A stretch of 32,124 nt of DNA, taken from contig JAEULC010000241.1 of the NCBI GenBank assembly GCA_016792605.1, positions 1 through 32,124 of the forward strand. The letters are read 5' to 3'. Source of the stretch: Rhodospirillales bacterium. GTDB taxonomy: Bacteria; Pseudomonadota; Alphaproteobacteria; JAEULC01. The translations under genes and the position numbers were made by a program. This document shows positions 411 to 24,320 of this stretch, piece after piece. A model generated the notes under the pieces. That model had not been told where the DNA came from. It saw only the letters and a program-made list of their open reading frames with translations, and ran no database searches. Within the stretch, counting starts at the first letter, position 1. Every line of letters starts with the position of its first letter.

Positions 411-1718
411 TCATGCCGCTTGGGCCGGCTTGGGCGGGGTGACGCGGATGGCCATGATCTGGTTGCGCTGGCGGCGCAGGATCTCGAAGCGGAAGCCGTG
501 GAAGGCGAAGACCTGGCCGACGCTGGGGATCAGCCGCGCCTCGCGCAGCACCAGCCCGGCGATGGTGGTCGCCGCGTCGTCGGGCAGGCCCCACTCGAAG
601 GCGCGGTTCAGGTCGCGCAGCGTGACCGATCCGTCGACCAGGTAGCTGCCGTCCGTCGCCTGGCGAACGCCCGGCAAAAGGTGGTCGGCCTTGTCCTCGC
701 CGGCATTGGCGATGTCGCCGACGATCTCCGACAGGATGTCGCTCAGCGACACCACGCCCATCAGCGCGCCGTACTCGTCGACCACCAGCGCCTGGCGCTG
801 CTCGCGCTGGCGGAAGGCCTGGAGCTGATCGAGCAGCGTGGTCGTGTCCGGCACGAACCACGGCGTCTCGGCGATGGCCAAGAGGTCGATCCCGGCGAGC
901 TCGCGGCCGCGCTCCATCACCTCGCGCATCAGGGCCTGGGCGGTCAGCACGCCGACCACGTTGTCCGGCTGGTCCTTGGTCAGCGGCACCTGGGCGTGGC
1001 CGCTGGCCAGGACCTGCTCGACGATCGCGCGTGGCGGGTCGGCAATGTCGGCGGTCACCACCTTGCGGCGGTGCGTCATCACCTGGCCGATCGTCACCTG
1101 GTCGAGGTCGAGCACGCCGCGCAGCATCGCGCGCTCCTGCTTCACCTCGGGCTCGGGGCCGGCGTGCAGCGCGATGACGCCGCGCAGCTCCTCGTCGGTC
1201 GGCGCATTCTGCGCGCCGTCGGCCGCGCCGGCGCCGACGACCGTCAGCAGGAAGCGCACGATCGCCTGCACCGCCACCGCCGCCGGCGCCAGCACTGCGA
1301 CGGCGACGCGGACCGAGCGCGCCAGGCCCAGCGCCACGTCGTCGGCGTGGTTGATCGCGTAGGTCTTGGGTAGCACCTGGGCGAAGATCGCGACCAGCAG
1401 CGTCATGCCGACGGTGGTCGCGGCGACGCCGTAGTCCTGGAACACCGCAATCAGGATCGTCGTCGCGATCGCCGTGGCGCCGATCACGGCCAGTGTGTTG
1501 CCCAGGACCAAGGCGGCGATGGTGTCCTCGCGCCGGTCCTGCAGCGCCTTGACCACCGCGGCGCGCAGGTCGCCGTCCTGGGCGAGCTGGTGGATGCGCG
1601 GGCGCGAGGCGGCGGTCAGCGCCGTCTCGGCGGCCGAGAAGAAGGCCGAGGCCGCAAGCTGGAAGACGATCGTGCCCAGCGAGACGGCAAGCTCGGCCGT
1701 GGCTAGTCGGTCAGGCAT
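411..1718 (-). CDS. CNNM/CorC (HlyC/CorC, UPF0053) family membrane protein with CBS domains
   Basis: 435 residues. The N-terminal ~200 residues form a CNNM (DUF21) transmembrane domain, with FFSAAETALTAASRPRIHQL near the start and helices around 10-30, 68-88, 98-120 and 140-165. Two CBS motifs follow: about 210-270 (VMTHRRKVV, AQVPLTKDQPDNVVGVL) and 285-340 (LVVDEYGALMGVVSLSDIL). A CorC_HlyC domain closes the protein (about 355-430, DGSVTLRDLNRAFEW). The family is linked to Mg2+/Co2+ homeostasis; the old 'hemolysin' label is not a proven activity here. Its ATG overlaps the aroB stop by 8 bases, indicating translational coupling. An aroK-aroB-CNNM order is common in alphaproteobacteria. Confidence 0.93.
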   Translation of the reverse strand: MPDRLATAELAVSLGTIVFQLAASAFFSAAETALTAASRPRIHQLAQDGDLRAAVVKALQDRREDTIAALVLGNTLAVIGATAIATTILIAVFQDYGVAATTVGMTLLVAIFAQVLPKTYAINHADDVALGLARSVRVAVAVLAPAAVAVQAIVRFLLTVVGAGAADGAQNAPTDEELRGVIALHAGPEPEVKQERAMLRGVLDLDQVTIGQVMTHRRKVVTADIADPPRAIVEQVLASGHAQVPLTKDQPDNVVGVLTAQALMREVMERGRELAGIDLLAIAETPWFVPDTTTLLDQLQAFRQREQRQALVVDEYGALMGVVSLSDILSEIVGDIANAGEDKADHLLPGVRQATDGSYLVDGSVTLRDLNRAFEWGLPDDAATTIAGLVLREARLIPSVGQVFAFHGFRFEILRRQRNQIMAIRVTPPKPAQAA

Positions 1719-2847
1719 AAGCAGGCGCGTCGCGGCCGGCGATCGCGTCGTCGAGCATGGCCGTGACCGCGTCCGTCGGCACGTCGCCCGCGGTGAAGGC
1801 CGTGCCGATGCCGCGCGTCAAGACGAAGCGCAGCTTGCCGTCGCGCACCTTCTTGTCATGCGCCATGTGCTGGACCAGACGCCCGGCCGACCAGGGCGTC
1901 TGCGGCAGGTCGGCAAAGCGCGTCGGCAGGCCGATCCGGGCCAGGTGCCGCGTCACGCGCGCAAGGTCGGCCGCCGGGCACAGCCCGCGCGCGACGCTGA
2001 GCCTGGTCGCCAGCACCATGCCGTAGCCCACCGCCTCGCCATGCAGCAGCGCGTCGCCGAAGCCGGTCTCGGCCTCCAGTGCGTGGCCGAAGGTGTGGCC
2101 GAAATTCAGCGTCTCGCGCAGACCCTGCTCGGTCTCGTCGGCGGCCACCACCTTGGCCTTGGCGCGGCAGCTGGTCGCGACCGCATGGACCTGGGCCTGG
2201 GTGTCGCCCTGGATCACGCGCTCGCCATGCGCCTCGAGCCAGGCGAAGAACGGCGCGTCGCCGATGACGCCGTACTTGGCGACCTCGGCATAGCCGGCCA
2301 GCATCTCGCGGCGCTTGAGCGTCTTGAGCGCGTCGGTGTCGGCGAGCACCAGCCGCGGCTGGTGGAAGGCGCCGACCAGGTTCTTGCCGCGCGGCACGTT
2401 GATCGCCGTCTTGCCGCCGACCGAGCTGTCGACCTGGGCCAAGAGGCTGGTCGGGATCTGCACGAAGTCGACGCCGCGCAGCGCCACGGCCGCGGCGAAG
2501 CCCGCCAGGTCGCCGATCACGCCGCCGCCCAATGCCACCAGCGTGCTCGATCGCTCCAGCTTCAGCGCCAGCAGCTCGTCGATCAGCCAGGCCAGCGTGC
2601 GGAAGTCCTTGCTGCCCTCGCCCGCGGGCACCTCGATCGCCTCGTGGGCGATGCCGGCTGCGTCCAGCGACGCCTGCAGCGTCGAAAGATGCAGCGCCGC
2701 GACGGTCTGGTCGGCGACGACGATCACGCGCGGCAGCTTCAGGACCGGGCGCATCAGCGCCCCGGCGCGCGGCAGCAGGCCTGGGCCGACATGGATGTCG
2801 TAGCCGCGCGCGTCGAGTTCGACCCGGACGGTGGTGACCGGGTTCAC
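1711..2847 (-). CDS. aroB: 3-dehydroquinate synthase
   Basis: 378 residues. Converts DAHP to 3-dehydroquinate, the second step of the shikimate pathway (cytoplasmic, NAD+ and divalent metal dependent). Visible family signatures are the NAD-binding GGGVIGDLAGF (107-117), IPTSLLAQVDSSVGGKTAIN (131-150), GYAEVAKYG (185-193, metal ligand Glu188), LNFGHTFGHALE (247-258, His251) and LLHGEAVGYGM (267-277, His269). The start is a GTG at 2847 whose TG is shared with the aroK stop (GTGA, 4-base overlap). The open frame continues upstream through aroK, but homology to AroB begins only here. Length is normal for the family. It forms an operon with aroK and the CNNM/CorC gene. Confidence 0.97.
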   Translation of the reverse strand: MNPVTTVRVELDARGYDIHVGPGLLPRAGALMRPVLKLPRVIVVADQTVAALHLSTLQASLDAAGIAHEAIEVPAGEGSKDFRTLAWLIDELLALKLERSSTLVALGGGVIGDLAGFAAAVALRGVDFVQIPTSLLAQVDSSVGGKTAINVPRGKNLVGAFHQPRLVLADTDALKTLKRREMLAGYAEVAKYGVIGDAPFFAWLEAHGERVIQGDTQAQVHAVATSCRAKAKVVAADETEQGLRETLNFGHTFGHALEAETGFGDALLHGEAVGYGMVLATRLSVARGLCPAADLARVTRHLARIGLPTRFADLPQTPWSAGRLVQHMAHDKKVRDGKLRFVLTRGIGTAFTAGDVPTDAVTAMLDDAIAGRDAPAYA

Positions 2848-3449
2848 GGCGCGCCTTCCGCCAGCATCAGCTCGGGGTTGGCCGCGAGATGCGCGGCGAT
2901 TCCGTCGATCACCCGCTGCACCATCGTGTCGGGCGGCCCGTCCGTGCTCTGCACCGTGATGTCGGCGGTGGCGTAGGTGGGGCCGCGCAGCTCCATCAGG
3001 CGGGTCAGGACCTCGGCGGGGTCGCCGCTGTTGAGCAGCGGCCGGTTGGAGCGGCGCGCGGTGCGGCGCAGGAGCACGTCGAGCTCGGCCTTGAGCCACA
3101 CCGAGATGCCACGCTCCTTGACCAGCGCGCGGGTCTGCGGGTCCATGAAGGCGCCGCCGCCCGTGGCCAGCACGTGCACCGGCTCGGCCAAGAGGCGCGC
3201 GATCACGCGGCGCTCGCCGGCGCGGAAGGCGGCCTCGCCATGCTGGGCGAAGATCTCGGGGATGGTCTGGCCGGCGGCGCGCTCGATCTCGTTGTCCGCG
3301 TCGACGAAGGGCAGGCCGAGCCGCGTCGCCAGGCGGCGGCCGATGGCCGACTTGCCGGCGCCCATCAGTCCCACCAGCACGATGGTGCGCGGCACCCGTT
3401 CCAGCCGGGCCGGCTTGTCGAGGGAGGCGGTGGAGGAGACGGCGGTCAT
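2844..3449 (-). CDS. aroK: Shikimate kinase
   Basis: 201 residues. Phosphorylates shikimate at the 3-hydroxyl using ATP. The Walker A motif GLMGAGKS spans 27-34, the shikimate-binding VDADNEIE lies at 49-56 (Asp52), FRAGER at 75-80 supplies Arg contacts, ATGGGAFM (95-102) is the glycine-rich substrate loop, and RRSNRPLL carries the lid Arg. It is about 20 residues longer at the N-terminus than E. coli AroK, so the true start could be internal; the ATG at 3449 has no strong ribosome site. It is the first gene of the leftward aroK-aroB operon; the promoter should lie in the 231-base gap to its right, shared with the divergent small membrane gene. Confidence 0.96.
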   Translation of the reverse strand: MTAVSSTASLDKPARLERVPRTIVLVGLMGAGKSAIGRRLATRLGLPFVDADNEIERAAGQTIPEIFAQHGEAAFRAGERRVIARLLAEPVHVLATGGGAFMDPQTRALVKERGISVWLKAELDVLLRRTARRSNRPLLNSGDPAEVLTRLMELRGPTYATADITVQSTDGPPDTMVQRVIDGIAAHLAANPELMLAEGAP

Positions 3450-3680
3450 CGGGCTGCTGCTTCGGGCCGGTTATGCTCACGTCGAACGCGTACAGACGAC
3501 CACGCCGCATCCCGATCGCCGGGGCCGCTCGCGGGCATCGCGCCGATTTGCGCGTCCCGGCGATTGACCTCGGCGGTCGGACGCCGCATTGTCGCCACAT
3601 CTCAACCCTAGCATACCGATCCGGCCGGTCGCCATGGCGGCCAGCCGGCCAGCGGTGCTTTTTCCCCGCGCATCCGGTTC

Positions 3681-3824
3681 ATGCCATTGCGAATTTTCTC
3701 CCTCATCGCGCTTGCCCTCGTGCTGCTCCTGGCGGGCGGGGCGGTCTTCCTGATGGTCTGGGAGCCCAAGGCCCCGACCCACGTGATCGAGCGGACGATC
3801 CCCGATGACAAGCTGCCGAAATAG
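3681..3824 (+). CDS. Small single-pass membrane protein (47 aa), unknown function
   Basis: A 47-codon ORF beginning MPLRIFSLIALALVLLLAGG and ending DDKLPK. Residues 5-26 form one hydrophobic helix, followed by a proline-rich polar tail (WEPKAPTHVIERTIPDDKLPK). The last 20 bases overlap the start of the downstream 610-codon gene, so the two are likely translated together. Support comes from the membrane segment, the coupling to a signal-peptide gene and its position opposite aroK. I recall similar short peptides with a 'VI.DD.LPK'-like tail beside aroK in related bacteria, but this is not verified. Topology would place the tail outside the cytoplasm. Confidence 0.72.
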   Translation: MPLRIFSLIALALVLLLAGGAVFLMVWEPKAPTHVIERTIPDDKLPK

Positions 3825-5637
3825 GGTCGCGCTGGGCTTGGTCCTGGGTCTGGTCGTCGGGCCGGCCCTGGCGCAGACCGGCAAGCCGACGCCGCTGTCG
3901 CCGGCGCCCGGCGCGCGCGCCACGGCCGCGCCGGTGCGTCCCGCCGCGACCATCGAATCGCAGCCCCTGTCCAACGAGACGGCCAAGCCCGGCGAGGCGA
4001 GCGTTGCGCCGGTCGCGGCCAACGAACTGCGCCCGGTCGATTCCGAATCCCTAGGGCTGCTGTCGGAGCAGGCCGGCGGCTTCGGCGTCAATCTCTACGC
4101 CAACACGCGGCGCGACATCGTCGAGGCGCTGCTGCCGGCGCTGCCGGCCGCCGTCGCTTCCCCGGCGCTGCAGTCGCTCGAGCGCCGCATGCTGCTGTCG
4201 ATCGCCCTGCCGCCGGAAGGCGACCGCGGCCAGCGCGGCGGGCTGATGCCGCTCCGCATCGAGCGCCTCTACGCGCGCGGCGACCTGACCGCCGTGCTCT
4301 ACCGCGCAAACGCCCTGCCGGCGCGCGAGGTCGACGGCCGCATCGCGCTGGCGCGGGCGAATGCGCGGCTCCTGACCGACGACCTCGGCGGCGCTTGCCA
4401 GGACGCGCGCCAGCGCCTGACGCCGCCGCCGGTGGCCAGCGCCGCGCCCGCCGCCCGCCCGGCGCCCAATCTTTTCTGGGACAAGCTCGCCGCGTTCTGC
4501 GACCTGCAGAACAGGGACATGGAGCGGGCGCAGTTCGGACTGGCCCTGGTGCGCGACCAGGGCGACAAGGACGCCGCCTTCTTCACGCTGGCCGACGCGC
4601 TGATGGGCAACGCCAAGGCGCAGGTCAGGAGCCTGCCCGAGGCGACGCCGCTGCACCTCGCCATGCTGCGCGCGGCGAACCTGAAGCTGCCGGGCGACGC
4701 GGGCGCGCTGAACCAGCCCGCGATCGCGCGCGGCATCGCCATCCATCCCGGCGCCTCGCCGGCGCAGAAGCTCGAGGCCGCGCATCGCGCCGCGCTCTAT
4801 GGCGCGATCGCGCCGGACGAACTCGCGCGCGTCTACGCCCAGGCCGAGTTCCAGCCGGCGCAGGTGAAGAACGCCTTTGCCGAGTCGGCGAAGATGGGGG
4901 GCGTGCGCGCCCGGGCGATCCTCTTCCGCGCCGCCCAGGAACAGACGCTGCCGCAGGCCAGGGCCGAGGCGCTGCGCGCGCTCTACCAGCTCGGCCGCAG
5001 CGAAGGCGACTTCGCGCTGCTCGCGCGCGTCACCCTGCCGCTGCTCCTGGAGATGCGCCCGGCGCGCGAGCAGGCCTGGTTCGCCGCCGATGCTGGCCGC
5101 GCGCTCTATTCCACGCGCCGCCTGGCCGAGGCCAAGGCGTGGTACGACGCGGCCGTCCAGGCCGCCGGCGCGGATCGCGACGCCGCCGCCGCGACCCTGG
5201 CGCTGTGGCCGCTGGCGCGGCTGGCCGACGGCGACGCCGCCGCGCCCTGGTCGGGCGAGCGCTTCCGCCAGTGGCGCGCGGCGGTCGAGGCCGGCAAGCC
5301 CGAGACCGTGGCGCCGCGCCTTGCCATGGCGCTGCTACTGTTCGACGCCTTCGCCGAGCCGGTGATCGGCATCGACTTCCAGGCGCTGCACCGTGCGCCG
5401 GCCACCCAGCCCGCGCCGATGCCCTCGCCCTTGACCTGGTACGGGATGCGCGAGGCCTCGGCCGAGGGCAGGGTGGGCGAGACCGTGCTGCATGTCCTGG
5501 TCGCGCTGGGCGAGACCGACCTCGCCCGGCACAGCCCGATCGTGGTTGCCAACGCCACCGGCACGCTGAAGGCTCTCGGCCTCGAGAAGGACGCCCGCGC
5601 GCTGGCGGTCGACGCGGCGATCCAGGCCGGGCTATAG
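3805..5637 (+). CDS. Secreted/periplasmic alpha-helical repeat protein, unknown function
   Basis: 610 residues. A signal peptide is clear (MTSCRNRVALGLVLGLVVGP, cleavage after ALA at 23). A Pro/Ala-rich linker (24-75) leads to a body made of Ala/Leu-rich helix pairs resembling TPR/SEL1-type repeats (for example ALYQLGRSEGDFALLARVTL and RALYSTRRLAEAKAWYDAAV). No catalytic motif is visible. It probably acts as a periplasmic scaffold, but that is inference. It is co-transcribed with the 47-aa membrane peptide by a 20-base overlap and followed by tRNA-Phe. Strong third-position GC bias supports the frame; the long antisense frames are artefacts. Confidence 0.88.
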   Translation: MTSCRNRVALGLVLGLVVGPALAQTGKPTPLSPAPGARATAAPVRPAATIESQPLSNETAKPGEASVAPVAANELRPVDSESLGLLSEQAGGFGVNLYANTRRDIVEALLPALPAAVASPALQSLERRMLLSIALPPEGDRGQRGGLMPLRIERLYARGDLTAVLYRANALPAREVDGRIALARANARLLTDDLGGACQDARQRLTPPPVASAAPAARPAPNLFWDKLAAFCDLQNRDMERAQFGLALVRDQGDKDAAFFTLADALMGNAKAQVRSLPEATPLHLAMLRAANLKLPGDAGALNQPAIARGIAIHPGASPAQKLEAAHRAALYGAIAPDELARVYAQAEFQPAQVKNAFAESAKMGGVRARAILFRAAQEQTLPQARAEALRALYQLGRSEGDFALLARVTLPLLLEMRPAREQAWFAADAGRALYSTRRLAEAKAWYDAAVQAAGADRDAAAATLALWPLARLADGDAAAPWSGERFRQWRAAVEAGKPETVAPRLAMALLLFDAFAEPVIGIDFQALHRAPATQPAPMPSPLTWYGMREASAEGRVGETVLHVLVALGETDLARHSPIVVANATGTLKALGLEKDARALAVDAAIQAGL

Positions 5638-14426: not shown

Positions 14427-15686
14427 CTAGAAAATGACACCCGCTTCGAACAGGACGCGGACCTGCGACGTGTCGTTGCCGGAGCTTCCAAAGGCGAAGC
14501 CGGGAGTCGTCTTGTCCAGCCCGACATAGGACACTTCCCCGCGGGCGAAGAACTTGTCGTACTGGAAGCTCGGGGTCACCGTGATCGACCAGTTCTTGGC
14601 GCCGGGGCCGCCGGTCACGAGCTCCGGCGCGCCCTCGTCGAAGCTGCCCGAGGAGCTGATGTACTCGCCACGGGCACCAAGCTTCCAATTCTCGTTGAAC
14701 GAATAGGACGCGATGGCCGCGACGCCGATGGTCGAGGCGGCCTGCGTAAAGTCCGCCGCTCTCAGGGCGCTGTCGTTCGGAACGTGGGTGTACTGGACAT
14801 AGGGCGTCACCGTCCATGGCCCCGAAGTGTACTCGTAGATCAGGTTGTAGATAGTGCTGTTGCTCTGCGCGAGCGGCGACCGGAAACTGTCTTCGCGGTT
14901 CGAGCCGAAACTGCCGCCGGCGCTGAAGGTGATCGCGTTGTTGTCGTCGATCGTGTAGGTCGCCGCACCCGTCAGCCAGTTGAATCTGCCCGTGAAGAAT
15001 CCGTCGTTGAGGGACACGGACAGGTCGAGGGGGCCGGTCGTGTAGTTCAGTTGGATGCCCTGATTGATCGAGTTCTCCTGGTTCCATAGGAGGCCGCGCG
15101 CGATATTGACATTCTGGAACGTGAAGTCCGGCTCCACGCCCAGGAGGGAGGGCAGCCGCCCGATCTGTACCGAGAACGAGTCGGTCGGCACTAGCTTGAC
15201 ATAGGCCTGCGGCACCGGCCCCCACAGCGACCCGTTGAGGTCGGCCGCGCGCGTGTAGGGCTCGCCCAGCGTCGGGATCGAATAGATGCCGGCCTGCACC
15301 ACGAACTGTACCGGGGCCGAGGCGGTCTGGAGGAACACCATGCCGTTGGCGATGTCCGCATAGGCCCTGTTGTCGTCGGGGAACGGGTTCGACTGCCATA
15401 GGCCGAGCCCGCTTACGGCCCCTGTTACATAGAGCCTGCCGAACCAGGACCCGAGGTCGAGATTCGCCGGACTGGGATTGGCCGAGAGTGTCGGGCCCAT
15501 CTCGGGGAACAGCGAGGCCGGGGATACGACCGGCGACGCCGAGTCCTGCGCGGGTTGGCTCGACGCGGCGCCGTCAACCCGGGCATCGGCAGGCGGATCA
15601 GCGGCCCAGGCCGCGCCGATGCCAAGGGCGGCCATCGCGAGAACCCGGAGGGCAGGCGCCATCCTGCTGACAATCATGAAGCACAT
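14427..15686 (-). CDS. Outer-membrane beta-barrel porin, BBP2 (OmpL-like) family
   Basis: 419 residues. A signal peptide ends at AAWA/ADPP. Three starts compete (Met1, Met4 at 15677, Met9 at 15662); Met4 or Met9 gives a more ordinary signal length and none has a strong ribosome site. The mature protein is rich in alternating Tyr/Thr/Ser/Asn strands, with a low-complexity linker (29-70) and a terminal Phe (LFEAGVIF), as expected for a barrel. QIGRLPSLLGVEPDFTFQN resembles the conserved BBP2 segment. It converges with the FAD oxidoreductase; the 127-base gap has no clear terminator. It may admit substrates for the neighbouring TRAP system, which is inference only. Confidence 0.85.
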   Translation of the reverse strand: MCFMIVSRMAPALRVLAMAALGIGAAWAADPPADARVDGAASSQPAQDSASPVVSPASLFPEMGPTLSANPSPANLDLGSWFGRLYVTGAVSGLGLWQSNPFPDDNRAYADIANGMVFLQTASAPVQFVVQAGIYSIPTLGEPYTRAADLNGSLWGPVPQAYVKLVPTDSFSVQIGRLPSLLGVEPDFTFQNVNIARGLLWNQENSINQGIQLNYTTGPLDLSVSLNDGFFTGRFNWLTGAATYTIDDNNAITFSAGGSFGSNREDSFRSPLAQSNSTIYNLIYEYTSGPWTVTPYVQYTHVPNDSALRAADFTQAASTIGVAAIASYSFNENWKLGARGEYISSSGSFDEGAPELVTGGPGAKNWSITVTPSFQYDKFFARGEVSYVGLDKTTPGFAFGSSGNDTSQVRVLFEAGVIF

Positions 15687-15933: not shown

Positions 15934-16785
15934 ATGAGGCATCGTCTCTTGGCTACGGCGGCCGCCGTTGCGATTGCGGCCGGCGCGATGGCAGCCCTTG
16001 CGCCGGCGTCGTTGGCCCAGGCCCCCGAGTCCGGACCTGGAATCGTCGTTTCGATTATCGGGTCCGCCACGATCTCGACCAAGGGCATGTCTCCGGGGAG
16101 CGAGATTTGGGCGGTTTGGTATTCGCTGCCTGCAGGCAAGACCGTCGTGGAACCAGCCAGCGGAGCAAAATGGGCATGGTTCGAGATGGCCCTTGGCGGC
16201 GCAGCCGTCGTGACCGGAACGCCTACGCCCATGTGCCGTCCCGTCAGCGCGGGAGGGTTCCAGGCCGCGGGTTCCGAGCGCGTCTCGGAGGCCGGCGATG
16301 TCGAGGTCTGCAACTATGCGATCCTTCCTGAGTCGCGTACCGAGAACCGGGGAGCCCAGCCGTATGTATTCGCCGGGCTGGCGGTTGGCGGCCCGTGGAA
16401 GGAAGGTATGGAGGACGACATCGACCTCTACCTCAAGGTGAACGGCATGGCCAAAGCGGTGCAGGTCCGTTCCGCGCAGTTCCGCGACGTGGAGAAGGAG
16501 ATCCTCGACGCAGGGGCGATGACGGTCGCGATCCGCAATGTCACGCTGCCGCCCGGCGCCCGGATCGCCGCGACGGATCGCTATCCCACGCTGCGGATGG
16601 TCGGGAGCGGGCAGCTCAACGTTGCCAGAGGCACCGGCGGCGCGCCGAAAGCGCTGGCGGCCCACGAGATGCTCGAGTGGGCGTCGGGGAGCGCCGAAGA
16701 ACAGATTGTCCTGTCGAACAACAGCGGTCAGCCGGCTCAGTTCGTCGAATGGACGGTCGCGCCGGCGCAAGGCGTCAATCCGTAG
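15934..16785 (+). CDS. Secreted protein with two cupin-like halves, unknown function
   Basis: 283 residues from ATG 15934, preceded by GGAGGAGA (15921-15928). A signal peptide (MRHRLLATAAAVAIAAGAMA, cleavage near SLA/QA at 29) sends it to the periplasm. The mature part is beta-rich. Segments EIWAVWYSLPAGKTVV (N-half) and MTVAIRNVTLPPGARI followed by LRMVGSGQLNV (C-half) look like two degenerate cupin barrels; the metal-binding histidines of classical cupins are largely missing. Two Cys residues (CRPVSA, VEVCNYA) could form a disulfide. I do not recognise a named family. It is the first gene of the operon with the amine oxidase-methyltransferase fusion, 35 bases downstream. Confidence 0.8.
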   Translation: MRHRLLATAAAVAIAAGAMAALAPASLAQAPESGPGIVVSIIGSATISTKGMSPGSEIWAVWYSLPAGKTVVEPASGAKWAWFEMALGGAAVVTGTPTPMCRPVSAGGFQAAGSERVSEAGDVEVCNYAILPESRTENRGAQPYVFAGLAVGGPWKEGMEDDIDLYLKVNGMAKAVQVRSAQFRDVEKEILDAGAMTVAIRNVTLPPGARIAATDRYPTLRMVGSGQLNVARGTGGAPKALAAHEMLEWASGSAEEQIVLSNNSGQPAQFVEWTVAPAQGVNP

Positions 16786-16820: not shown

Positions 16821-19037
16821 ATGAACAGCGAGACCGACGAGACGGACGCCGGAAAGGATGCGGTCGGATCAGCGCCGTTCAGGGTCGCGATCATCGGCGG
16901 CGGGCCCGGAGGGCTGTTCACTGCCTGGCACCTGGCCGCCAAAGCCGGGCTGAGTTGCCAGATCACGGTGTACGAGGCGAGCGCCCGTCTCGGGGGAGAG
17001 ATCAAGACCGGCCAGTTCGCAGGCGTAGGGCCGTACGAGGCCGGGGTCGCGGAAATCTACGACTATTCCCATTTGGGTCCCGATCCGCTGCACGAGCTGA
17101 TCGTCAAGGAGCTGGGCCTCGAGATCAAGTACATCCGGGGCGGCCCTTGCGTGATCGATGGCAAGATCGTTCTCGAAACCAACGATCTGGCGAGACTCTT
17201 CGGGGAGCAGGCCCGGGACGAAGCGCTCGCGTTCCGCAAGCGCTGCGCCGACCTGCTCAATCCGGAGTCGTATTACCTGGCGGTGGCGGAGGAAGACAAC
17301 GCGCATCCATGGTCGGCGGTGCGCGGCAGCGACCTGCTGGAGCGGGAATTCACCGACGACGTCGCGCGTCGCTACATCCGGGCGATGGCGCACAGCGACG
17401 TTGCCGCCGACCCGCACCAGACAAACGGGCTCACCTTTCTCAAGAACGTCCTGATGGACGTTGAGGGTTACATCAATCTCTGCTCCGTCCTGGGCGGCAA
17501 CGAACAGATCGTGACCCGCCTCGCCGAGGACCTCGACGCCCAGATCCGATTGAACTCGAATGTGACGGCGGTCGAGCCACTCGACGACGGCACGTTCAGG
17601 CTTGAAATGCAGGTCAACGGCGTCGAGGAGAGGGTGATCGCCGACTACGTGGTCGCAGCCCTGCCGCTCAGGGCGCTTTCGACGATCCACTGGCGGTCGG
17701 AGTCTCTCGAGCTCGCGATGGACAAGCACGCGGGCTACTTCGACCGCCCCGGTCACTATATTCGCGCGACCTTCCTGTTCCGCCGCCCCTTCTGGCGCGA
17801 CAAGATCTCGACGGACTGGTGGATGCTCGACGCGTTCGACGGGTGCTGCGTCTATGACGAAGGCACGCGCTACGACTACGGCGCGTATGGGCTGCTGGCC
17901 TTTCTCATTGCCGGAAACCCGGCGCTGGAGCTCACGAACGATTCCGATGAACTCATCGAGCAGCGGTGTCTGGAGGCCCTGCCGCCGGAACTCGCGCACG
18001 GCAAGGAGCTGCTGCTGGACCGACGCATCAATCGCTGGGTGGGATCGGTCAGCGCGATTCCCGGCGGCCTGCCGGTGCGACCGCGCTCGGTCAACCATCG
18101 TCCCGATCCGGTGCACACGCCTCGCTTTGTCCTGGTCGGAGATTACCTGTTCGACGCGACGCTCAATGGGGTGATGGACTCCGCCGAGGTGGCCGGCGAC
18201 ATCATCCTCGCCGATGTCCTGGAGCAACGACGGGCAGGATCGGGGGAGACCAAGGGGGCGGGATCGTCCGCCGATGCGCTCAACGAGGCGCTCGAGCATG
18301 TGGAAGACCTGATGTCCGTACAGTGCATCGCGGACCTACTGGAGGCGGCCTGGGGGCTTACGCCGGGCGCCAGGATCCTGCATGTCGGCTCCGGCGCCGG
18401 GCACATGGTTGCGACGCTCAGGGCACGCGGCTTCGATGCCAGAGGCGTCGAGTCCAGCCGCGAGGCAAGCCAGGCGACCCCGGCGGCGCTCAAGAAGCAC
18501 AATTTCTGGGCCGACTACGCCCGCCTGCCATTCGAGGGCGAGGAATTCGATGCGGTCATCGAGACGGGACTTTATCGTACCGCGCCGCAGAGCGCCGAAG
18601 GTGCGATCGCGGAACTTCATCGGGTGACGAAGCATGGTGTCGTTCTGGGGTCGGTGACGACGGACCTTACGATCGAGATGATCGAGCGCTTCAAGCTGCT
18701 CGAGGGCGTCGAGGTGCTATGCTCGCGCTGGGACTGGGCCGAAAGGTTCTACAAGGCAGGGTTCGTGCACGCGCTGTTCCAGCCCAACCGCCTAGGGGCC
18801 GCGTGGGAGAAGACCAAGGACATGGCCGGATCCGGCCAGTGGTACGAAGATTCGGAGAGCCTGCTCTACTGCGTCTACGAGCGCGCGGCGCAGCGAGGAT
18901 CGCTCGGTCTCTCGAACGCGCCCGCGGCGGCGGCGCGACCGCATGAACGGGGCCTCGCCTCGGCCGGGGTGGCCGGCGCCGAGCCGGCGGACGCGCGGGC
19001 GCCGGCCATCGTCGCGGCGCGGTCTTCATCGGCATAG
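16821..19037 (+). CDS. Fusion of FAD amine oxidase (N) and class I SAM methyltransferase (C)
   Basis: 738 residues in one uninterrupted frame; the ATG at 16821 follows GGGAGGGG (16802-16809). Residues 20-470 form a flavin amine oxidase: FAD motif VAIIGGGPGGLFTAWHL (22-38), YEASARLGGEIK (51-62) and the C-terminal FAD loop VLVGDYLFDATLNGVMDS (437-454). After a Gly/Ser linker (471-485), residues 490-690 form a Rossmann methyltransferase with SAM loop ILHVGSGAGHMV (519-530), acidic GVESS (542-546) and FDAVIETGLY (576-585). An Ala/Arg-rich tail (690-738) looks disordered. The substrate is unknown; oxidation and methylation of one product is the simplest reading. No signal peptide. The gene lies 35 bases after the cupin-like gene and 18 before the anchored protein. 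Confidence 0.88.
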   Translation: MNSETDETDAGKDAVGSAPFRVAIIGGGPGGLFTAWHLAAKAGLSCQITVYEASARLGGEIKTGQFAGVGPYEAGVAEIYDYSHLGPDPLHELIVKELGLEIKYIRGGPCVIDGKIVLETNDLARLFGEQARDEALAFRKRCADLLNPESYYLAVAEEDNAHPWSAVRGSDLLEREFTDDVARRYIRAMAHSDVAADPHQTNGLTFLKNVLMDVEGYINLCSVLGGNEQIVTRLAEDLDAQIRLNSNVTAVEPLDDGTFRLEMQVNGVEERVIADYVVAALPLRALSTIHWRSESLELAMDKHAGYFDRPGHYIRATFLFRRPFWRDKISTDWWMLDAFDGCCVYDEGTRYDYGAYGLLAFLIAGNPALELTNDSDELIEQRCLEALPPELAHGKELLLDRRINRWVGSVSAIPGGLPVRPRSVNHRPDPVHTPRFVLVGDYLFDATLNGVMDSAEVAGDIILADVLEQRRAGSGETKGAGSSADALNEALEHVEDLMSVQCIADLLEAAWGLTPGARILHVGSGAGHMVATLRARGFDARGVESSREASQATPAALKKHNFWADYARLPFEGEEFDAVIETGLYRTAPQSAEGAIAELHRVTKHGVVLGSVTTDLTIEMIERFKLLEGVEVLCSRWDWAERFYKAGFVHALFQPNRLGAAWEKTKDMAGSGQWYEDSESLLYCVYERAAQRGSLGLSNAPAAAARPHERGLASAGVAGAEPADARAPAIVAARSSSA

Positions 19038-19055: not shown

Positions 19056-19907
19056 ATGATCATGCTCGAAGCAGAGGCAGCAATTGCGCCTCAAGCGTGG
19101 CGGGTCGAGTTTGCGGAAGGCGCAAGAATCGCGCCGGATGGAGGCGACGCCATCACGATCTCGGAGCCTCGCAGCGTCACGGCGGTGCTGACCCCCTTGG
19201 CGACGTCGGACGCGCTTGCGGAGGTCAGTCCGCAGACCGCCGGCGCGCTGATCGTCATCTGGATGCCGCCGGGCGCAAACACGCCGGCGACAATCGAACG
19301 CGACGTCGACGAATGGGTGCGCGGCGCCGGCACGGAAAGGAAAGAGGCGAATGCGCGGGCGGACGTCCGCACGTTGCGCGTGGCGTGGGGCAGGAACCGG
19401 ACGGTGGTCTATGCGAACGAGGGCGACGTCCGCCTTGCGCTCGACGCGATCCTCCGGTTCAGCCTCGCGCAACGGGAGACGCTCGCGCTCAACGCGGCCA
19501 TGCGATCGATGTGGCCCTCGATCGAGGCCGACGCCACCTTCACCCACGCGTTGACGCCACGGGACCGGAAGAAGCAGCCGCACATCAACGAGATGACGGT
19601 GACCGTGACGCGCATGAAGATCGCCTGGCTGCGGCTCAAGGCAAGTCTCGAGCAGGTCGACCCCGCGCTCGCCGAGCCGTCGAAGCGGCTGTTTGCCGAG
19701 CTCGCCGCCGCCGTCTTCCTTTACGACCAAGTGGACGTGCTGGGGCCCAAGGTCCAGTTCGCGCTGGATCACTATGAGATTGCCAACACGCGATTGATCG
19801 ACATGACGCTCGTCCGGCAGGAGCGCATCGAATCCATCGCCGGATACGGCATGATCATCGTATTGCTCGTCTTCCAGACCTGGCTGATCTTCCAGGACCT
19901 GTGGTGA
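19056..19907 (+). CDS. C-terminally membrane-anchored protein, possibly RMD1/YagE (DUF155)-like
   Basis: 283 residues; ATG 19056 (a second ATG two codons on) follows AAGGGG. There is no signal peptide. The N-half is a mixed alpha/beta domain (GALIVIWMPPG near 63-73; AWGRNRTVVYANEGDVRL). The C-half is helical, ending in a charged helix (TRLIDMTLVRQERIESIAGY) and a single transmembrane helix (GMIIVLLVFQTWLIFQDL). This layout, FSLAQ helix then helical pairs then terminal anchor, resembles the RMD1/YagE family, but the similarity is weak. It would sit on the cytoplasmic face of the inner membrane. Third gene of the operon with the cupin-like and fusion genes. Confidence 0.8.
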   Translation: MIMLEAEAAIAPQAWRVEFAEGARIAPDGGDAITISEPRSVTAVLTPLATSDALAEVSPQTAGALIVIWMPPGANTPATIERDVDEWVRGAGTERKEANARADVRTLRVAWGRNRTVVYANEGDVRLALDAILRFSLAQRETLALNAAMRSMWPSIEADATFTHALTPRDRKKQPHINEMTVTVTRMKIAWLRLKASLEQVDPALAEPSKRLFAELAAAVFLYDQVDVLGPKVQFALDHYEIANTRLIDMTLVRQERIESIAGYGMIIVLLVFQTWLIFQDLW

Positions 19908-21346: not shown

Positions 21347-22387
21347 ATGCGGGACTACTTTCGGCCGGCCGGCCGGTCGGTGTGGACCGCCAAGGAACTA
21401 TCGACCATGACCGACTGGGTCTTCCATTGGCCCGAGCGCAGCCTGGCGGAAATCGACGCCTGCCTGGATCGGGTGAAGGCGCGCGGCGTTCCGTGGTCCG
21501 GCGTGACCGCGGCGGATTTCCCGCTGGAGACGCTGGGCAACTGGCTCCAGGGCATCAAGACGGAGATCGCGACGGGCCGGGGCTTCATCGTCATGCGCGG
21601 CCTCCCAGCCGCCAAGTACGGGCTGGACGACCTGAAGCGGATCTACTGGGGCGTCGGCGCGCATTTCGGCGTGCCCCAGGCGCAGAGCCACCTGGGCGAC
21701 ACGCTCGGCAGCATCATCGACCTGACTGACGAGCAGCCCGACATCTTTCGCCGCCGCGGCTACAACTCCGGCGGCCCGCAGACCGTGCATACCGACTCGT
21801 CCGACATCGTCTCGATGCTCAGCATCACCACGGCCAAGTCCGGCGGCGCGTCCTGCCTGACGAGCGCCCATGCCGTCCACAACCTGATGCTCGACCACGC
21901 GCCCAAGCTGCTGGAAGTGCTGTACCAGGGCTTCCATGTGCGCGGCACCGATACCGACGCGGCGGCGGGCGGCATCGACCTCGTGTCCCCCTACCGCGTG
22001 CCCGTGTATCGGTATACCGAGGGGTGGCTGAACGGGTTCTTCGTCGAGGGCTATGTCCGGCGCACCCTCCTGGCCGGCAATGTGCGGCTAACCCCGCTCG
22101 AAGAGGCGGCGATGCAGGCCTTCATCGCCTTCGCCAACCATCCCGACATGATGACCCACATGCTGCTCGAGCCGGGCGACATGCAGTTCCTCAACAACCG
22201 CACGGTCTTCCACGGCCGGGCGGCGTTCGAGGACCATCCCGAGAAGCCGCGTCGGCGCCACCTGTTGCGGCTCTGGCTGACCGTGCCGGAATGGCCGCGC
22301 ATGGCGCCCGAGCAGGACTACCACGGCGCCGACGTGCGCCAGCGCTGGGCCGCCAATGCCGAGGCCGGGGCCTTGAAGTCGGCCTAG
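21347..22387 (+). CDS. TauD/TfdA-family Fe(II)/2-oxoglutarate dioxygenase
   Basis: 346 residues; the ATG follows AAAGGAGAAGG with good spacing. The iron triad is VHTDSSD (His148, Asp150) and NNRTVFHGR (His289), with the 2-oxoglutarate Arg in RRRHLLRLW (302-310). FIVMRGLP (80-87) is the usual TauD-family strand. The sequence lies closer to the general TfdA-type group (YFRPAGRSVWTAKEL N-terminus) than to classical taurine dioxygenase. It sits 157 bases upstream of xsc on the same strand, which suggests but does not prove a sulfonate substrate. The gap has no clear terminator. Confidence 0.92.
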   Translation: MRDYFRPAGRSVWTAKELSTMTDWVFHWPERSLAEIDACLDRVKARGVPWSGVTAADFPLETLGNWLQGIKTEIATGRGFIVMRGLPAAKYGLDDLKRIYWGVGAHFGVPQAQSHLGDTLGSIIDLTDEQPDIFRRRGYNSGGPQTVHTDSSDIVSMLSITTAKSGGASCLTSAHAVHNLMLDHAPKLLEVLYQGFHVRGTDTDAAAGGIDLVSPYRVPVYRYTEGWLNGFFVEGYVRRTLLAGNVRLTPLEEAAMQAFIAFANHPDMMTHMLLEPGDMQFLNNRTVFHGRAAFEDHPEKPRRRHLLRLWLTVPEWPRMAPEQDYHGADVRQRWAANAEAGALKSA

Positions 22388-22544: not shown

Positions 22545-24320
22545 ATGAAGATGACGACCGAGGAAGCCTTCGTGAAGGTGCTGCAGCGCCATGGCATCGA
22601 GCATGCCTTCGGCATCATCGGCTCGGCCTTCATGCCGATCTCGGACCTGTTCGGCAAGGCCGGCATCACCTTCTGGGACGTGGCGCAGGAAACCAATGGC
22701 GGGCTGATCTGCGACGGCTATACCCGCGCCACCGGCAAGATCGCCATGGCGATCGCCCAGAACGGCCCGGGCGTCACCGGCTTCGTGACCGCGGTCAAGA
22801 CCGCCTACTGGAACCACACGCCGATGCTTCTGGTGACGCCGCAGGCCGCCAACAAGACCATCGGCCAGGGCGGCTTCCAGGAAGTCGAGCAGATGGCGCT
22901 GTTCCGCGACATGGTCTGCTACCAGGAGGAGGTGCGCGACCCCTCGCGCATCGCCGAGGTGCTGAACCGCGTCATCCTCAAGGCCAAGCGCCTGTCGGCG
23001 CCGGCGCAGATCAACGTGCCGCGCGACTACTGGACCCAGGTGATCGACATCAGCCTGCCGGCGGTGGTCGAGTTCGAGCGCCCCTCGGGCGGCAAGGAGG
23101 CGATCGCGGCCGCCGCGAAGCTGCTGTCGCAGGCCTCGTTCCCAGTGATCCTCTCGGGCGCCGGCGTCGTCATCGGCGGCGCGATCCCGGACACGGTGAA
23201 GCTTGCCGAGAAGCTCGGCGCGCCGGTCTGCAGCGGCTACCAGCACAATGACAGCTTCCCCGGCAGCCACCCGCTCGCCGTGGGGCCGCTCGGCTACAAC
23301 GGCTCGAAGGCGGCGATGCAGCTCATCGCCAAGGCTGACGTGGTGCTGGCGCTGGGCACGCGCCTGAACCCGTTCTCGACCCTGCCGGGCTACGGCATCG
23401 ACTACTGGCCCAAGGACGCCAAGATCATCCAGGTCGACATCAATGCCGACCGCATCGGCCTCACCAAGCCGGTGACGATCGGCATCTGCGGCGACGCCAA
23501 GCTCGTCGCGCAGCAGATCCTGGAGCAGTTGTCGCCGACCGCCGGCAACCAGGGCCGCGAGGCGCGCATGGCGACGATCCACCAGACCAAGTCGGCCTGG
23601 CTGCAGGCGCTGTCGAGCATGGACCACGAGGACGACGATCCGGGCACGACCTGGAACGCCGACGCCCGCAAGCGCGACGCCGACCGCATGTCGCCGCGCC
23701 AGGCCTGGCGGGCGATCCAGGCCGGGCTGCCGTCGAACGCGATCATCTCTTCGGACATCGGCAACAACTGCGCCATCGGCAACGCCTATCCGACCTTCGA
23801 GCAGGGCCGGAAATACCTGGCGCCGGGCCTGTTCGGGCCCTGCGGCTACGGGCTGCCGTCGATCATCGGCGCCAAGATCGGCTGCCCCGACGTGCCGGTC
23901 GTGGGCTTCTCGGGCGACGGCGCGTTCGGCATCTCGGCCAGCGAGATGACCTCGATCAGCCGCCCGGAATGGCCTGGCATCACGATGGTGATCTTCCGCA
24001 ACTACCAGTGGGGCGCGGAGAAGCGCAACTCGATCCTGTGGTACGCGGACAACTTCGTCGGCACCGAGCTCAGCCGCGACCTCAGCTATGCGAAGATGGC
24101 CGAGGGCTGCAGCCTCAAGGGCGTCGTCGTCACGACCCAAGCCCAGCTCACGGCGGCGCTGAAGGAATCCTGCGAGGCGCAGAAGAAGGGCGTGAAGACC
24201 TTCATCGAGGTGATCCTGAACCAGGAGCTCGGCGAGCCCTTCCGCCGCGACGCGATGAAGAAGCCGGTCGTCGTCGCCGGCATCGATCCCAAGGACATGA
24301 TCCCCCAGCGGCCGGCGTAG
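22545..24320 (+). CDS. xsc: Sulfoacetaldehyde acetyltransferase
   Basis: 591 residues. A thiamine-diphosphate enzyme that splits sulfoacetaldehyde with phosphate into acetyl phosphate and sulfite (EC 2.3.3.15). The N-terminus MKMTTEEAFVKVLQRHGIEH and the segments IGQGGFQEVEQMALFRDMVC, MDHEDDDPGTTWN and FRNYQWGAEKRNSILW are hallmarks of Xsc and differ from acetolactate synthase. The catalytic Glu is Glu49 (AQETNG), and the ThDP/Mg motif begins at GDGAFGIS. Full length for the family. This enzyme is central to taurine, isethionate and sulfoacetate carbon use. The usual partner pta and the taurine dehydrogenase/transaminase genes are absent from the window, though xsc pathways can be split. Confidence 0.95.
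   Translation: MKMTTEEAFVKVLQRHGIEHAFGIIGSAFMPISDLFGKAGITFWDVAQETNGGLICDGYTRATGKIAMAIAQNGPGVTGFVTAVKTAYWNHTPMLLVTPQAANKTIGQGGFQEVEQMALFRDMVCYQEEVRDPSRIAEVLNRVILKAKRLSAPAQINVPRDYWTQVIDISLPAVVEFERPSGGKEAIAAAAKLLSQASFPVILSGAGVVIGGAIPDTVKLAEKLGAPVCSGYQHNDSFPGSHPLAVGPLGYNGSKAAMQLIAKADVVLALGTRLNPFSTLPGYGIDYWPKDAKIIQVDINADRIGLTKPVTIGICGDAKLVAQQILEQLSPTAGNQGREARMATIHQTKSAWLQALSSMDHEDDDPGTTWNADARKRDADRMSPRQAWRAIQAGLPSNAIISSDIGNNCAIGNAYPTFEQGRKYLAPGLFGPCGYGLPSIIGAKIGCPDVPVVGFSGDGAFGISASEMTSISRPEWPGITMVIFRNYQWGAEKRNSILWYADNFVGTELSRDLSYAKMAEGCSLKGVVVTTQAQLTAALKESCEAQKKGVKTFIEVILNQELGEPFRRDAMKKPVVVAGIDPKDMIPQRPA

Follow-up and report, generated by a model that had tools for sequence, protein, structure and literature searches.

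A protein that joins an FAD-dependent oxidoreductase domain to a SAM-dependent methyltransferase domain was identified in a 32,124-nucleotide stretch of DNA from a Rhodospirillales bacterium (the whole stretch is referred to as the window). It is a genuine, natural, and complete two-domain protein. It represents a conserved, apparently undescribed family that many soil alphaproteobacteria retain intact, in most cases next to a gene for a membrane exporter, and that is built on a plan already known from other enzymes. Translation of the gene gave a single open frame of 738 codons with zero internal stops (Table 1). The window genome is in 506 contigs and 79% complete, which made it necessary to rule out misassembly. 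Dozens of independent homologues carry both halves in a single frame, which refutes the idea that two genes were joined by a frameshift, a chimera, or misassembly; this explanation is vanishingly improbable even though a frameshift breaks one of the homologues, that of the complete genome G361. The uninterrupted fusion proposed in a first-pass annotation, which had named such an artefact as the outcome that would undo it, is thus upheld by the open frame, the two Pfam domains, and the full-length homologues. The exact start is uncertain because the frame extends upstream without a stop as far as a GTG at 16395 and homologue N-termini align near residue 19 of the window protein.

Table 1. Coordinates of the fusion gene, its parts and neighbors in the window, and of phage relatives of the FAD half in their own contigs
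Feature	Position	Strand	Basis or remark
Outer-membrane porin (PF07642), divergent	14427..15686	-	Also beside the cluster in Desertibaculum
Upstream gene, signal-peptide-like N-terminus	15934..16785	+	No Pfam/NCBIfam match; ORF open from 15841
Fusion gene	16821..19037	+	738 codons and a stop codon; start not certain, possibly nearer residue 19
FAD-dependent oxidoreductase domain, residues ~19-462	16875..18206	+	PF01593, AF2 model (predicted fold), Foldseek, dN/dS 0.10
R315 codon (aligns with the active-site lysine of MAO-A)	17763..17765	+	HMMER alignment; column of 30 relatives
Variable interdomain linker, residues ~463-500	18207..18320	+	Alignment; dN/dS 0.40
Class I SAM-dependent methyltransferase domain, residues ~501-690	18321..18890	+	PF08241, PF13649, conserved columns, dN/dS 0.19
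Ala/Pro-rich C-terminal tail	18891..19034	+	dN/dS 0.90, near neutral; missing in most homologues
TM8, downstream partner	19056..19907	+	283 aa, one C-terminal hydrophobic helix, no known family
Phage FAD-half relatives	L099:2842-4383, L104:3998-5929, L109:3875-5428, L110:3914-5395, L112:3857-5374, L113:3884-5422, L114:3872-5875		

The N-terminal half matches Amino_oxidase (PF01593) over residues 30–455 (E = 4e-25; 89.5 bits against a cut-off of 19.8). This single above-cut-off domain contains both an N-terminal dinucleotide-binding loop (residues 22–38, VAIIGGGPGGLFTAWHL) and a C-terminal FAD loop (residues 437–454, VLVGDYLFDATLNGVMDS), which places it in the flavin amine oxidase superfamily at the level of fold. 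An AF2 model was built from a nine-sequence alignment, an earlier input of two sequences having given a pLDDT of 30. In this model the FAD half has pLDDT values of mostly 70–95 and the methyltransferase half is modelled poorly. A Foldseek search with the modelled FAD half found MAO-A and putrescine oxidase at TM(target) ~0.71. Together with cyclohexylamine oxidase and L-amino-acid oxidases, these two are its nearest matches in fold and sequence. The FAD half is therefore predicted to have a monoamine-oxidase fold.

Methyltransf_11 (PF08241) covers residues 520–607 of the window protein (E = 1.5e-8), and both PF08241 and PF13649 exceed their cut-offs in the C-terminal half. The SAM loop lies near residues 519–527 (ILHVGSGAG), with motif I, GSGAG, at 523–527; its position and those of both FAD loops had been correctly given in the first-pass annotation. 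Residues G523, G527, and E544 are invariant across 23 fusions, as are F576 and D577 of the FD pair at 576–577, and the PF pair at 570–571 is conserved. A glycine-rich motif I, an acidic residue after strand 2, and an above-cut-off family score identify the domain as a class I methyltransferase. The acidic residue that usually precedes the glycine loop (position 521) occurs only in the clade of families f255, f246, and f280; neither the window's clade nor the rpoC-linked one has it. The top NCBIfam match is NF045667, the DVU_1556 family methyltransferase (E = 5e-14), and membership in that family was ruled out by a score of 52 bits against a cut-off of 155. The two domains are joined by a linker that had been described as Gly/Ser-rich. 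The linker is present, but alignment of homologues indicates that this richness is peculiar to the window protein and that the sequence varies elsewhere.

Desertibaculum subflavum (Sneathiellaceae) encodes the same protein, in one frame across both halves, with 79% identity. The fusion is present in 48 of 150 genomes sampled from family f171, to which G361 belongs and which gene order suggests is a Bradyrhizobium-like family, with 42%–53% identity. An order-level sample yielded it in 34 of 388 genomes, spread over several families and nine genera. The window cluster has no comparable match in the three other genomes of the same genus. In G361, the frameshift-split copy (L066:9018-11077) lies between rpoC and rpsL and is either a recent pseudogene or a sequencing error. 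The first-pass annotation had advised looking for the halves as separate neighboring genes; class- and order-level searches, under strict E-value limits that could miss distant split forms, returned only fusions apart from the frameshifted G361 copy. No stand-alone methyltransferase half was found, and the FAD half alone was found only in phage contigs. A plasmid search gave one weak amine-oxidase match and nothing else, annotated phages had no match to the fusion family, and no viral relatives of the methyltransferase half were found. No publications naming the locus or the architecture were identified in a literature search that reached a minority of subscription journals.

Both domains are under purifying selection and the tail is not, because dN/dS values against Desertibaculum are ~0.10 for the FAD half and ~0.19 for the methyltransferase half versus ~0.90 for the poorly conserved last ~48 residues, with ~0.40 for the linker. 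The FAD half is also the more conserved in amino acid identity (85.6% vs 73.2%). These values bear on whether the FAD half might be a non-redox or supporting module that stabilizes the methyltransferase or places its substrate, a role that the oxidase half of plant cyclopropane synthase seems to have, with methylation as the only needed activity. Its non-canonical active site would fit such a role, as would the ~30% activity kept by cotton cyclopropane synthase without its oxidase domain (PMC3132707), but both the stronger conservation and lower dN/dS (0.10 vs 0.19) of the FAD half and its stand-alone occurrence in phages with the same invariant residues make this quite unlikely.

The active site of the FAD half departs from that of monoamine oxidases. 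The active-site lysine of MAO-A (K305) aligns to R315 of the fusion in a HMMER alignment, and position 315 is arginine in all 30 aligned relatives (23 fusions and seven phage relatives), so the lysine expected of a functional monoamine oxidase is missing. Also invariant in these 30 sequences are E52, E73, D88, D193, N209, D213, D308, Y313, C343, Y345, D441, D445, T447, N449, and S454. The position of the second tyrosine of the MAO cage, matched by eye from the motif, is V451; it is never aromatic and is Val, Leu, Ala, or Cys across relatives. Because the lysine is replaced by an invariant arginine, the label "amine oxidase" describes the fold of the FAD half, and the chemistry need not be amine oxidation. 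Of the earlier designation as an amine oxidase, the superfamily fold therefore stands and amine oxidation is not borne out. A genuine amine oxidase linked to an N-methyltransferase, using an amine or cyclic amine as substrate and working in the manner of MnmC, would agree with the top fold and sequence matches listed above and with the C–N oxidation and SAM methylation combined in one MnmC chain (PMC3648344). It is nevertheless unlikely given the invariant arginine and the Val, Leu, Ala, or Cys found in every relative at the motif-matched second cage position.

Three gene contexts of the fusion were observed. In the first, the order is rpoB-rpoC-fusion-ABC exporter-...-rpsL-rpsG-fusA; this arrangement is that of most carriers in f171 and also occurs in a single f71 genome. 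In the second, found in f255, TRAP genes DctP-DctQ-DctM are followed by the fusion and an exporter. In the third, TM8 follows the fusion; this order is seen in Desertibaculum and the window itself, in f182 and f278, and in genus g317 of f171. Where an exporter is present, it is the next gene after the fusion, in the same orientation, and the exporters of the first two contexts are 43% identical to each other. The models that score best for the exporter are of MsbA/glucan-export-type ABC transporters, all below cut-off. An exporter orthologue (at least 72% identity) is present in 45 of the 150 f171 genomes, which are the 48 fusion carriers minus three g317 genomes whose fusions belong to the TM8 clade, and it never occurs without the fusion among these 150. 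In G403, which has neither gene, rpoC is followed by FAD16/GNAT7, genes located beyond the pair in relatives. TM8- and exporter-type partners each map to a single clade of the fusion tree with 100/100 support. The partner gene thus matches the clade: two fusion clades are exporter-linked and the window's clade is TM8-linked instead. Members from f280 and f246 stop at contig edges, with the partner gene beyond view. At one locus (L127:6295-9061), the region after the fusion carries a tandem duplication of TM8 together with the small protein that follows it (cluster 39).

The strongest sign that fusion and exporter share a function is their pairing at two unrelated loci, although being neighbors does not establish that two genes act in one pathway. 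We propose, with about even confidence, that the fusion is a two-step tailoring enzyme of a conserved, undescribed alphaproteobacterial family whose product is exported or membrane-associated. With its monoamine-oxidase-like fold, the N-terminal domain would bind FAD, and its most likely role is the dehydrogenation or oxidation of a small or lipid-like substrate in a non-canonical active site with an invariant arginine. The C-terminal domain would most likely use SAM to methylate either that substrate or its oxidized form. The product would then pass to a membrane partner, which may be the MsbA-like ABC exporter in two clades and the membrane-anchored TM8 in the window's clade. Export in the window's clade, which has no exporter beside the fusion, rests on analogy. 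A bacterial analogue of plant cyclopropane synthase, acting on the acyl chains of membrane lipids with the exporter as a lipid flippase, would have the identical domain order and could account for an exporter resembling MsbA and glucan exporters. This is very improbable, as the protein has no PF02353 match at E<=1 and the window's clade has no exporter beside the fusion. A broader form of the two-step tailoring proposal is tentative and falls somewhat short of even confidence: a widespread, undescribed bifunctional family, including Bradyrhizobium-like genera with the rpoC-rpsL site, may make a methylated, flavin-oxidized molecule that is secreted or flipped by a dedicated MsbA-like exporter, with a flavin half shared with a phage head-module protein.

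In the window, the upstream gene (15934–16785), the fusion, and TM8 are encoded in the same direction, separated by 35 and 18 bases. TM8 comes after the fusion in every examined locus of the window's clade, with a size of ~280 aa across loci. These three genes and the divergent porin are all shared with Desertibaculum (64%–79% protein identity). A horizontal move of the cluster seems likely because Desertibaculum is related to the window genome at class level only. The two halves of the upstream protein are cupin-like by eye, and among the loci examined the gene occurs only in the window and Desertibaculum. The TRAP genes that flank the cluster in the window were compared with those beside the f255 fusions; DctP and DctM have 24% and 35% identity, which is not specially close, and no link was drawn. 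Further along, the window encodes a sulfoacetaldehyde acetyltransferase, Xsc (22545–24320; TIGR03457, 925 bits, well over the equivalog cut-off), adjoined by a weakly matched Fe(II)/2-oxoglutarate-type dioxygenase (21347–22387). Together these suggest possible sulfonate use.

Scans of viral contigs with the family identified seven IMG/VR contigs in which a relative of the FAD half (35%–39% identity) stands alone. These proteins group in one clade, with R315 and the two FAD motifs retained. Where examined, the gene adjoins MuF-like head proteins in a structural module and precedes a conserved ~430-aa protein. Three of the MuF-like neighbors match PF04233 or phrog_220, one of them below the Pfam cut-off. 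In L112, a MuF head protein and the FAD domain share one 1580-codon frame (632–5374), in which the FAD part may have its own internal start; the MuF match is weak (PF04233, 23.0 bits against a cut-off of 29.6), and an intein-like insert (PF14890) is also below cut-off. In L113, an intein-like domain lies within a MuF-like head protein (1521–3896); its PF14890 score of 33.2 bits falls just short of the cut-off. MuF proteins with C-terminal effector domains have been proposed as phage-delivered toxins (PMC5576092), and a virion-carried flavoenzyme is therefore a testable idea. The phages may possibly carry such an enzyme, a lead that stands apart from the main finding.

An enzyme whose two domains stay joined in many alphaproteobacteria, and an exporter that is absent from the sampled f171 genomes lacking the fusion, point to an unrecognized metabolite or envelope lipid in seemingly well-studied genera such as Bradyrhizobium. 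Why domains of these two kinds, flavin oxidase and methyltransferase, become fused could also be studied more easily in this bacterial system than in plants. Known enzyme systems were compared with the fusion. Monoamine, putrescine, and L-amino-acid oxidases (PF01593) share the overall fold and both FAD-binding motifs of its FAD half but differ from it at Arg315, which replaces the MAO lysine, in the apparently missing second cage tyrosine, and in the added C-terminal methyltransferase. The first-pass annotation knew of no named enzyme with this domain order, yet plant cyclopropane fatty acid synthases (CPS) of Sterculia and cotton have an N-terminal FAD oxidase domain followed by a C-terminal SAM-dependent domain (PMC3132707). 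Separate adjacent genes for the CPS-type halves are known in Agrobacterium and mycobacteria, and the role of the oxidase domain is unknown, ~30% of activity being left in cotton CPS when the whole domain is removed (PMC3132707). The C-terminus of CPS belongs to the cyclopropane synthase family, whereas that of the fusion is Methyltransf_11-like, and the organisms and gene context differ; membership among plant-type synthases was ruled out by a Pfam search with no PF02353 match up to E = 1. The same two activities occur in reverse order in MnmC, the bifunctional enzyme of tRNA mnm5s2U34, where FAD oxidation of a C–N bond is followed by SAM methylation at active sites ~45 Å apart (PMC3648344). 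MnmC has a similar length (~670–690 aa) and also combines both domains in one chain, but its methyltransferase is N-terminal and its glycine-oxidase-like FAD domain C-terminal (PMC3648344). Membership in MnmC was ruled out by this reversed order, by PF01593 as the best family with a much weaker DAO match, and by the lack of an MnmC model among the NCBIfam and Pfam matches listed. By analogy, coupled oxidation and then methylation in one chain is plausible for the fusion, and MnmC would be the best model of how it may work.
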